Assembly: GCA_026985525.1 (NCBI GenBank)
Contig: JALSQI010000076.1
Location: 1 to 64,000, forward strand
DNA from: Archaeoglobaceae archaeon
GTDB taxonomy: Archaea > Halobacteriota > Archaeoglobi > Archaeoglobales > Archaeoglobaceae
Reading direction: 5' to 3'
Length of the DNA: 64,000 nucleotides
Shown here piece after piece: positions 44,974-47,769 of this stretch. Numbering within the stretch: position 1 is the stretch's first letter; each line of letters begins with the position of its first letter. Made by a program: the position numbers and the translations under genes. The notes under the pieces are model-generated. The model made no database searches. It was given only the letters and a program-made list of their open reading frames with translations, and was not told the origin of the DNA.

Positions 44974-46071
44974 ATGGGGAGCAGTTTTGGCATTGTTTTT
45001 AAAGTACACACTTGGGGCGAGAGTCACGGCAGAGCAGTAGGATGCGTTGTAGATTCCCCACCTGCTGGTTTAAAACTTAATGAGGAAGACATACAAAAAG
45101 AATTGGACAGAAGAAAACCGGGAGGTAAGTTAGCTTCAAAGAGAAAAGAATCAGACAAAGTTGAAATTCTTTCAGGTATTTTCGAAGGTCTTACTACTGG
45201 AACTCCTATTTCAATGCTCGTTTGGAATAGAGATGCAAGACCAGAAGCGTATGAACCAATTAAAAATCTGATAAGACCGGGGCATGCAGACTACACGTAC
45301 TTAGCAAAATTCGGGTTTAGGGATTGGAGGGGTGGAGGAAGAGCGTCTGCGAGAGAGACTGTAGCGAGAGTAGCTGCTGGAGCTATTGCAAAGAAGCTCC
45401 TTTCAGAATTTGGAGTAGGCATTTACGGATATACCAAGGAAATAGCAGGAATAAGATGCGAAGTAAGTGGAGAAATAGAGGAAATATTTAAAAGAGCCGA
45501 AAAAAACTCTGTAAGGTGTCCAGACGAAGAAAAAGCCGTTTTAATGGAAGAAAAAATAATCGAAGCTATGAAGAGTGGAGATAGCGTTGGAGGAGTTGTA
45601 GAAGTAGTTGCGAAAAACGTTCCTGCCGGAATAGGTGAACCCGTATTCGACAAATTGGATGCGAGGTTGGCTTACGCTGTTATGAGCATACCTGCAGTAA
45701 AAGGTGTGGAAATTGGTTCTGGTTTTTCATGCTCAAAAATGAGGGGTAGCGAACACAACGACGCTGTAATCCTTAAAGATGGAAAAATAAGATTCGAAAC
45801 AAATAACGCTGGAGGAATCTTGGGAGGAATATCTTGTGGAGAAGACATAGTAATTAGAGCTGCAATAAAGCCAACTCCTTCGATTTCAATACCCCAAAAG
45901 ACTGTAAACGTTGAGACTATGGAAGAGACGGAAATAGTAGTTAAAGGTAGGCACGACCCGTGTATAGTTCCCAGAGCCGTTCCAGTTGTGGAAGCGATGG
46001 TTGCAATAACAATAGCGGATTTAATGATGCTACAAGGCATAATACCAAGATCTCTCATTAAAAAGCATTAA
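44974..46071 (+). CDS. aroC: Chorismate synthase
   Basis: FMN-dependent last step of the shikimate pathway. The 365-residue protein has [18 protein letters not shown] at the N-terminus, [14 protein letters not shown], the signature [20 protein letters not shown] near 120 and the C-terminal [26 protein letters not shown] precedes the ATG. It forms an operon with thrC. A T-run at 46186-46193 in the downstream spacer may act as its terminator. Confidence 0.97.
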
Positions 46072-46185
46072 AATTTTAGGAGTTGAAAAATCCTTAGAAA
46101 ACACAGATTCAAAAAATAATCGATAACTCAAGAAATGGGAGAAAACGGTTAATTTTTAGCAATTCGAAACGATTTTGAAGCTTAG

Positions 46186-46194
46186 CTTTTTTTC
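46186..46194 (+). terminator. T-run after aroC
   Basis: CTTTTTTTCC follows a short imperfect GAAGCTTAGC palindrome about 115 bases after the aroC stop. Archaeal RNA polymerase terminates at such T-tracts, so this is a plausible terminator for thrC-aroC. Confidence 0.4.
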
Positions 46195-46237
46195 CATTTT
46201 CGTTAAAAACCGTGATTTTCCATTCGTTATGCGAAAA

Positions 46238-46333
46238 TTTTAAAAGCAATTGCATCAAGAGTGATGCACTCATTGAAAAGCGTTTCCCAAACACGAAAAA
46301 GTAAAATAAGCTTAATTTAGTTCGGGAAACGCT
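46238..46333 (+). promoter_or_regulatory. Structured promoter/leader of the AdoMet decarboxylase operon
   Basis: A TATA-like TTTTAAAA (about 46238-46245) is followed by a perfect 7-bp hairpin TGCATCA-AGAG-TGATGCA at 46251-46268, around the expected transcription start. Then AGCGTTTCCC (46279-46288) pairs with GGGAAACGCT (46324-46333) across 35 bases. AAAAGCGTT also occurs twice (46276, 46336). These could be operator sites or 5'-leader RNA structure controlling polyamine synthesis. The repeats are visible; function is inferred. Confidence 0.4.
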
Positions 46334-46370
46334 CTAAAAGCGTTATTCGTTTGTTAAGGGGTGAGAAAAA

Positions 46371-46454
46371 ATGAAGAAGGGTGATGACCATGATAGTCGG
46401 GAAGCACATAATTGCGGAGTTGTATGGAGTTCCAAAGGAGCTAATTTCATATGA
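46371..46454 (+). other. Short ORF overlapping the AdoMet decarboxylase start
   Basis: A 27-codon ORF (begins MKKGDDHDSREAHN) starts at an ATG preceded by a strong GGGGTGAG site and overlaps the first 65 bases of the decarboxylase gene in another frame. It could act as a regulatory upstream ORF, or the strong site may merely help load ribosomes for the start at 46390. No similarity to known peptides is recognised. Confidence 0.3.
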
Positions 46455-46728
46455 GAAAACAGTAAGGGAAATAGTAGAGGAGGTAGTTGAGAAATCGGGG
46501 CTTACGAAAGTTGGAAGCGTTTACAAACAATTTGAGCCGTATGGCGTAACTGGAATTGTTTTAGTTGCGGAATCCCATGTAAGTTTGCATACTTGGCCAG
46601 AATACGAGCTTGTAAATCTCGACATATTTACATGTGGCGACGCTAAAGCCGCGGAAAAAGCTTTTGAACTGTTTTTGGAAAAATTCAAACCTCGCTCCTA
46701 CAGACACTACGTGCTCGACAGGGGGTAA
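46390..46728 (+). CDS. speH: S-adenosylmethionine decarboxylase proenzyme
   Basis: Makes decarboxylated AdoMet, the aminopropyl donor for polyamines. The 112-residue proenzyme is of the small prokaryotic class and self-cleaves before Ser in AESHVSLHTWPEYE near residue 60, creating the pyruvoyl group. Catalytic His and Cys are in SLHTWP and FTCGD. Three in-frame starts exist (GTG 46381, ATG 46384, ATG 46390); GGGTGAT at 46379-46385 best fits the ATG at 46390. It is followed six bases later by bpsA. Confidence 0.94.
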   Translation: MIVGKHIIAELYGVPKELISYEKTVREIVEEVVEKSGLTKVGSVYKQFEPYGVTGIVLVAESHVSLHTWPEYELVNLDIFTCGDAKAAEKAFELFLEKFKPRSYRHYVLDRG

Positions 46729-46734
46729 AAAAGA

Positions 46735-47769
46735 ATGCAAGTAGAAGGCATGGATAGGAGAATAGTAAATCAGATATTGCAGGCGATAGATGGAGAGATT
46801 TCAATTTACAGGCTGATAGACTCCCAAGATGCAAGTCTTCCAGAATTTTTTAACATAATACAGGAAATGCAAAGAGATGGATTGCTGAAAGTCGAAAACG
46901 GAAAAGTAAAATTAACTGAAAAAGGAGAGAAACTGAAAGAAGAGGAGAAGTTGTTTTATTCCGACGTTAGGTGTAAGTGTTGCGATGGTAGCGGTTACGT
47001 AATAGCTGAAGAGTTTAAAGAGGCTTTTGAGGAGTATAAGAAGATAGCTAAGGAGAGACCGGAGACAATAGAAGTTTACGATCAGGGATTTATAAGCGTA
47101 GATGGCGTTATGAAGAGAGTCGAGTTTCTTTACGAAAGAGGAGATTTGAGGTCAAAAATATTCGTTGTAGGAGATGACGATTTGTTCAGCTTAGCTGCTG
47201 CCCTTACAGGAGTGCCAGAAAAAATTACAGTAGTAGAAATAGATGAAAGGCTTGTCAAATTCATAAACTCCAAAGCTGAAGAGTATAGCCTGCCAGTTGA
47301 GGCGAGAGTTTACGACGTACAGAAAGCTTTTCCTGAAGAGCTTAGAAAGAAGTACGACGTATTTGTTACGGATCCAGTAGAAACAATTCCGGGATTAAAG
47401 CTGTTTCTTTCGAGAGGTGTGTCAACACTCAAAAGTGCAGGATGTTCCGGCTACTTTGGATTGACAACTCTCGAAGCTTCGAGGAAGAAGTGGTATGAAA
47501 TACAAGAGATGATACACGAAATGGGTTTCGTAATAACTGATATGATAAGAAAGTTTAGCGTTTATCCTGAGGAAGAAAAGAACTTCTTTAGATTTCAGGA
47601 AAAGCTACCAGTTGTAGAAAAGCTTAGAGCTGAAATAGACTGGAACTGGTACAAGTCCACGCTTTACAGAATAGAAGCAGTTGTAGATCCGAAACCGCTT
47701 GTAGAGGGAGAAATGATAATAGACGAGAAAGTTTACAAAGACGATGAAAGCTGGGCAACGCCTTACTAA
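46735..47769 (+). CDS. bpsA: Branched-chain polyamine synthase (BpsA, DUF43 family)
   Basis: Aminopropyltransferase that adds two aminopropyl groups to one nitrogen of spermidine, giving N4-bis(aminopropyl)spermidine; the reference enzyme is from Thermococcus kodakarensis. The 344-residue protein has an N-terminal winged-helix-like region (1-70), CKCCDGSGY near 80, then the methyltransferase-like core with VVGDDDLFSLAAAL near 146 and DPVETIPGLKLF near 216, matching the family GDDD and DPxET motifs. GGGGGT lies eight bases before the ATG. Coupling with AdoMet decarboxylase supports the role. Confidence 0.93.
   Translation: MQVEGMDRRIVNQILQAIDGEISIYRLIDSQDASLPEFFNIIQEMQRDGLLKVENGKVKLTEKGEKLKEEEKLFYSDVRCKCCDGSGYVIAEEFKEAFEEYKKIAKERPETIEVYDQGFISVDGVMKRVEFLYERGDLRSKIFVVGDDDLFSLAAALTGVPEKITVVEIDERLVKFINSKAEEYSLPVEARVYDVQKAFPEELRKKYDVFVTDPVETIPGLKLFLSRGVSTLKSAGCSGYFGLTTLEASRKKWYEIQEMIHEMGFVITDMIRKFSVYPEEEKNFFRFQEKLPVVEKLRAEIDWNWYKSTLYRIEAVVDPKPLVEGEMIIDEKVYKDDESWATPY

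Follow-up and report, generated by a model that had tools for sequence, protein, structure and literature searches.

The leader of speD, the gene coding for AdoMet decarboxylase (AdoMetDC), ends in an Archaeoglobaceae archaeon with a short upstream open reading frame (uORF) that has its own Shine–Dalgarno sequence (SD1) and start codon (ATG1) and runs out of frame across the Shine–Dalgarno sequence (SD2) and the start codon (ATG2) of speD. This overlapping uORF is well supported by comparison among relatives, which shows a conserved order SD1–ATG1–SD2–ATG2, a constant frame, an acidic peptide start and the recurrence of the arrangement before mgtE, a gene for a Mg2+ transporter. Chances are about even that the uORF acts in cis to repress AdoMetDC translation and that, as we infer, the repression is relieved when polycations are scarce; the relief would probably come from destabilization of the ribosome by the acidic nascent chain. 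A previous sequence-only reading of this DNA had expected a special regulatory element in the AdoMetDC leader, and this expectation is supported, by a uORF which that reading did not mention.

The speD Operon and Its Promoter

The leader belongs to a 1.34-Mb draft genome of an Archaeoglobaceae archaeon, and the coordinates in Table 1 refer to the window, that is, the whole stretch of 64,000 nucleotides that was analysed. The leader is followed by speD, bpsA and a gene for a P-loop NTPase, and the N-terminus of the speD product from ATG 46390 is consistent with the N-termini of solved AdoMetDC chains. When 49 family leaders were aligned (locus L047 left out), the highest upstream conservation fell on CGAAAA-nTTTAAAAATCA, the BRE/TATA element, and a TTCAG-like spot was found about 30 nt beyond it. 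The TATA-to-start distance ranges from 76 to 180 nt across the family leaders, and in genus g4 speD is preceded by almost no leader.

Table 1. Features of the speD leader and operon in the window.
Feature	Coordinates	Strand	Basis or remark
BRE/TATA promoter element CGAAAATTTTAAAA; family form CGAAAACTTTAAAAATCA	46232..46245	+	kept in alignment of 49 family leaders
TATA box	46238–46245	+	leader alignment
7-bp hairpin TGCATCA-AGAG-TGATGCA	46251..46268	+	downstream of TATA box, upstream of expected start; not conserved
Expected transcription start	46268..46272	+	inferred from TATA box distance
Long-range helix, 5' arm AGCGTTTCCC	46279..46288	+	genus-level feature
Long-range helix, 3' arm GGGAAACGCT	46324..46333	+	pairs with 46279–46288
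SD1 GGGGTGA, Shine–Dalgarno of uORF	46358..46364	+	sequence
Overlapping uORF, 27 codons + stop, MKKGDDHDSREAHNCGVVWSSKGANFI	46371..46454	+	49/50 family loci, out of frame, 1 mod 3
SD2 GGGTGAT, Shine–Dalgarno of speD; Gly-Asp in uORF reading	46379..46385	+	sequence, leader alignment
speD, AdoMet decarboxylase (AdoMetDC) proenzyme, 112 aa from ATG 46390	46390..46728	+	PF02675, 5.7e-36
bpsA, branched-chain polyamine synthase	46735..47769	+	PF01861, 1.2e-98

Architecture and Conservation of the Overlapping uORF

In the window, ATG1 (46371) lies 19 nt before ATG2. Of the two frames that differ from that of speD, only the uORF frame passes SD2 without a stop, the GGTGA motif giving one in frame 2. 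Among the 47 genes of the window, an SD followed by an ATG was found 10–31 nt upstream of two, and the second of these has an upstream ORF that stops after two codons, inside the SD of the gene; speD is the sole gene of the 47 with the SD1–ATG1–SD2–ATG2 architecture. The duplex energy with the 16S tail was stronger for SD1 than for SD2 in 38 of 49 loci.

The search of 55 family genomes yielded 50 speD loci, five genomes, several of them incomplete, giving no match (loci L111–L177, which partly repeat contigs of the G-numbered genomes, were left out of the 50). An SD and an ATG precede the speD ATG by 13, 16, 19, 22 or 28 nt in 49 of these 50 loci, and all 49 distances equal 1 mod 3. In a tree of speD built from 49 rows (the partial gene L051 excluded), the spacing between the two start codons has changed at least 10 times if the first ATG is taken, or at least nine if the last one is, without the frame ever being lost; by simple arithmetic and assuming equally likely frames, such retention would be expected by chance about once in 20,000 or less. 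The leaders around the uORF, meanwhile, can hardly be aligned between genera. The frame also remains open well inside speD: its first stop lies at least 20 codons beyond ATG2 in all 49 uORF loci, whereas synonymous recodings of speD place it at a median of 8–14 codons. The chance of such an open frame per locus, for rows that are related to one another, is 0.2–0.4 in genera whose frame stops at 20 codons and 0.01–0.14 in the others. ATG2 with its own SD2 is likewise retained in the 49 loci. The product of the uORF varies in length (25–55 aa), and synonymous sites of the overlap are no more constrained (1.26) than those elsewhere (1.24 and 1.15; L047 and L051 excluded from the test), so that the peptide beyond its start is unconserved; judged by this test and by the range of lengths, the uORF holds no conserved arrest peptide sequence independent of speD.

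The lone family genome without the uORF, and the exception to the architecture with which every other family leader ends, is G048 (L047/L060). In this genome ATG1 and SD2 have been lost, ATG2 has become GTG, and the uORF frame meets a stop at codon 15. Its speD is N-terminally extended, with an in-frame ATG 54 nt upstream of the GTG.

Outside the family, a scan of named genomes yielded 67 relatives. The uORF is present in all seven Hydrothermarchaeota-type loci (L127, L128, L131, L134, L136, L137, and L141), a name used here for all seven records although their labels differ: four carry the Hydrothermarchaeota or the Candidatus Pyrohabitans name, one more has a Hydrothermarchaeota title, and two are labelled Euryarchaeota or archaeon only. 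The AdoMetDC proteins of these loci are 72–79% identical to that of the window, and their leaders read GGTGAGA...ATG GGT GAT GAN N ATG ACA, with a uORF coding for MGDEDDSH or MGDDDDSH that starts 13 nt before the main ATG. No uORF was found in the deeper AdoMetDC relatives G055, G056, and G057 or in the second g8 copies, within a set made up of two genomes of the same order, one of the same class, three second copies from g8 and one fragment; nor was any found in 18 of the 25 loci of another set, or in L063, L065, and L066 of four more.

Some other AdoMetDC genes met in these searches deserve mention. Three g8 genomes carry a second, divergent copy (L056, L057, and L058; 36–42% identity) that has no uORF, and one genome has, on the same contig as its intact speD, a partial speD-like fragment with stops (L059, G039:C53:16411-16608), apparently a decayed duplicate. 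L135, whose AdoMetDC is 73% identical and has no uORF, lies in a MAG labelled Desulfohalobiaceae, by transfer or on a mis-binned contig. Finally, the distant gene L064 of G170 (37% identity) has a GTG/ATG roughly 49 nt before the matched region; it was not counted, and its acidic out-of-frame reading MTESGDADGDH is possibly another uORF case.

The Acidic Start of the Peptide and the Link with mgtE

The uORF peptides all start with M...G-(D/E)-X-(D, H, Y or N)-D. The G-D pair and the final D are forced, since they arise from reading SD2 and ATG2, GGTGAT and (N)ATGAT, in the uORF frame. The codon X is free, and in the 49 loci, which are phylogenetically related rows, it codes for D in 24, E in 11, G in 6, S in 6 and C in 2, that is, for an acidic residue in 35 of 49. 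Each start holds 3–6 acidic residues, and the acidic run is short (3–4 acids within 5–6 codons). The acidic motif, being mostly forced by the overlap, may be a by-product.

The same module was sought elsewhere by pattern searches that spanned the own genome, the family, the class, the phylum and the seven Hydrothermarchaeota-type genomes. A tight pattern gave a single match in the own genome, at speD, and none in the control. A looser one found speD in 42 of the 55 family genomes, together with 12 other places; the reversed control gave five. Two of the 12 precede mgtE, in G025 and G026. A 16-nt pattern with a GA codon matched 89 places in 294 genomes of the phylum; among the 50 of these that were inspected, nine were at speD and four at mgtE, most others lying inside genes or lacking an SD, and the places that have an SD1, lie outside any gene and precede a genuine one were essentially those nine and four. 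One further pattern search returned 40 places, 30 of them with loci.

In G025 (L068/L080) and G026 (L069/L081), close relatives that represent one lineage, the MgtE gene (PF01769) stands behind a uORF coding for MGGDDDG at 16 nt, again 1 mod 3. The mgtE gene of G014 (L083) is preceded, 16 nt upstream, by the out-of-frame acidic uORF MRGEDHD, and those of G057 (L110/L197) and G058 (L285) by MRGEDDG at the same distance; in G002 a GTG is all that stands 16 nt before mgtE, and its SD is weak. Other mgtE homologues, inspected by eye, mostly have no uORF (29 taken, 27 of them retrieved), and an MgtE search of eight genomes (the seven Hydrothermarchaeota-type ones and one of Thermoplasmata) returned weak or no matches. 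Another link between both genes is found in the Geoglobus group, where an mgtE-family gene directly follows speD–bpsA in G027, G028, G029, and G031 (L017, L019, L020, and L027), which ties Mg2+ uptake to branched polyamine synthesis in one cluster. The presence of the uORF before speD and before mgtE means that the module is common to two polycation genes that are unrelated to each other. It is conceivable, as a tentative proposal that we hold to be somewhat less probable than its opposite, that the acidic uORF gates AdoMetDC and MgtE as a two-gene archaeal polycation regulon of two phyla, with the ribosome as sensor; the uORF control of AdoMetDC would then have arisen apart from that of animals and plants.

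Proposed Mechanism

We infer that the uORF is translated, that its translation represses speD and that acid-induced loss of ribosomes serves as the sensor. SD1 would attract ribosomes to initiate at ATG1, and a ribosome that does not leave the mRNA would pass ATG2 and terminate at least 20 codons inside speD, too far from ATG2 for a restart, so that speD would be repressed. Mg2+ and polyamines keep the ribosome intact, which counts all the more near 80–90°C. When both are scarce, ribosomes carrying the acidic chain would fall apart over SD2, by intrinsic ribosome destabilization, and their loss would either free SD2 and ATG2 or pass the small subunit to them, with AdoMetDC, and then BpsA, being made. 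On the other hand, plentiful polycations would allow the uORF to be read through, and AdoMetDC synthesis would be damped. The choice of the ribosome on the acidic uORF as the sensor rests on precedents for acidic chains and for mgtQ, and on the link of branched polyamine with ribosome stability. Acidic N-terminal nascent chains are described to abort translation in bacteria and in eukaryotic systems, an effect counteracted by Mg2+ (PMC9718836); translation of MgtB, a Mg2+ transporter of Salmonella, is promoted by the acidic codons of mgtQ, although the authors note that destabilization was not directly demonstrated there (PMC8092293); and branched polyamine has been linked to the stability of ribosomes and of other expression machinery in thermophiles (PMC12979288).

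An alternative explanation dispenses with the sensing. A plain overlapping uORF might lower AdoMetDC translation independently of polycations, its peptide sensing nothing; the frame, the overlap and the avoidance of stops require nothing further, and the tail of the peptide is unconstrained. However, neither the acidic bias of codon X nor the presence of the same module before Mg2+-transporter genes is explained in this way, and we regard such a throttle as unlikely.

Secondary Structures of the Leader

A structured RNA leader, or a DNA operator, that senses polyamine and controls the operon has also been considered, in keeping with the earlier proposal of a polyamine-responsive operator or a new RNA element. 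The sequences on which that proposal was built (the 7-bp hairpin, a 10-bp inverted repeat and a 9-nt duplication) are all present. The hairpin exists, although upstream of the expected transcription start and not at it as had been thought: since the TATA box implies a start farther downstream, it would belong to the promoter and be absent from the transcript if initiation occurs where expected. Its stem length is at chance level, with at least 7 bp being found in 22 of 300 dinucleotide shuffles, and the 5' arm of the palindrome was not retained in the alignment of the four congeners L003–L006, on which account an operator palindrome at the start site was rejected. The 9-nt repeat, AAAAGCGTT at 46276–46284 and again at 46336–46344, is equally unremarkable, since repeats of at least 9 nt occurred in 30 of 300 dinucleotide shuffles.

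Only the inverted repeat proved to be noteworthy. The arms AGCGTTTCCC and GGGAAACGCT can form a long-range helix of 10 bp with a 35-nt loop, which was equalled by 2 of 200 shuffles when Watson–Crick pairs alone were counted (19 of 200 with G–U allowed). Compensatory changes, which had been called for in its support, were absent at the level of the family; within genus g1 they were found in two of the four congeners, where a strong helix is re-formed in the same place with other letters. The helix of L003 has 12 pairs including G–U (2 of 200 shuffles as good, or 28 of 200 by Watson–Crick pairs alone) and that of L004 has 14 (0 of 200). Of the remaining congeners, L006 has a weak helix in the same place (14 of 200, Watson–Crick) and the helix search found no counterpart in L005. 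A possible counterpart exists in g2, in the form of 8–9 bp helices, GCCAGATT(C)/(G)AATCTGGC, with loops of 34–36 nt in L022, L042, and L046 (7, 1, and 3 of 200 shuffles as good, respectively), the three g2 loci, out of six, that the test covered. Furthermore, in the minimum free energy fold of the leader in the window, CUCAUU, where the transcript should begin, is paired with the region of SD1.

A genus-level structure may therefore exist in the speD leader. Nevertheless, the helix is lost across genera, without any conserved loop, and cannot be the conserved element of this leader. The folding z of −3.05 for positions 46246–46389 falls to only −1.85 for 46268–46400, the portion downstream of the expected start, and the values within g1 are scattered (L002 −1.83, L003 −0.63, L004 −2.45, L005 +1.46, and L006 −1.33). 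No family-wide structure appeared when 50 leaders, each taken from the expected transcript start to a little beyond ATG2, were folded against shuffles (mean z −0.25, median −0.25), and the leader is almost missing in g4. An Rfam scan of 46000–46500 gave no family at gathering score. On the Rfam scan, the folds and the helix search, a riboswitch or structured leader was rejected as the conserved element, and polyamine sensing by such a leader or by an operator seems improbable.

Other Conceivable Roles for the Upstream Start

It has further been considered that the product of the uORF acts as a small protein, or through translational coupling, or that SD1 serves merely as a standby site, ATG1 being incidental. 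Tandem SDs could merely load more ribosomes, but ATG1 and its frame have survived at least nine changes of spacing, and a functional small protein, which was rejected in view of the missing synonymous-constraint signal, agrees poorly with a length of 25–55 aa and an unconstrained tail; these roles are left with a slim chance.

Programmed +1 frameshifting is the least probable of the explanations. In antizyme, polyamine sets the rate of +1 frameshifting, and in prfB frameshifting is known to be stimulated by an SD-like sequence inside the reading frame. By analogy, ribosomes that start at ATG1 might slip by +1 near SD2 and yield an N-terminally extended AdoMetDC at a rate set by polyamine, and in all cases the two frames are offset such that a +1 slip would correct it, but there is no conserved stop or slippery codon, ATG2 and SD2 are kept in 49 of 49 loci, and solved AdoMetDC chains start near the ATG2 residue, making the idea very doubtful.

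Relation to Known Systems

The preferred reading, a cis-acting uORF whose repression of AdoMetDC is relieved at polycation scarcity, has counterparts elsewhere. In mammals (MAGDIS) and in plants (tiny and small uORFs), uORFs before the AdoMetDC gene repress AdoMetDC in response to polyamine; these uORFs stop short of the main start codon and stall ribosomes at termination. The archaeal uORF resembles them in standing before the AdoMetDC gene, whereas it reads through the main start and codes for an unrelated peptide, and a common origin is not suggested. Another example of uORF control of a polyamine enzyme is SpeFL, an ornithine-sensing arrest peptide encoded before speF that acts through Rho and mRNA structure; unlike the speD uORF, it does not overlap the gene and has a conserved sensor sequence. 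The E. coli mgtA leader mgtL is an intrinsic ribosome destabilization leader. With this system the speD uORF would share the acidic N-terminal chain and the counteracting Mg2+, although the effect is described from E. coli and eukaryotic systems (PMC9718836) and here it would operate in an archaeon. In the Salmonella mgtCBRU operon, mgtQ is likewise a short ORF for an acidic peptide that directly precedes a polycation gene; acidic codons near its start make mgtQ less translated and the following gene more so (PMC8092293). As described there, mgtQ has 8 codons, no out-of-frame overlap with mgtB and alternative stem-loops (PMC8092293); the speD uORF, by contrast, runs into speD, lacks any conserved stem-loop and belongs to an archaeon. 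In the literature searched, which took in a minority of the subscription papers, no record of a uORF before an archaeal AdoMetDC gene turned up.

If this reading holds, AdoMetDC would be under uORF control in archaea as in animals and plants, by an unrelated device, and the destabilization of ribosomes by acidic chains, known from bacteria and eukaryotic systems, would extend to archaea as a physiological sensor. A single start-codon change would then make polyamine and Mg2+ sensing in hyperthermophiles directly testable. The assignment of gene starts is corrected as well: in this leader, the first good SD–ATG pair is not the start of speD.
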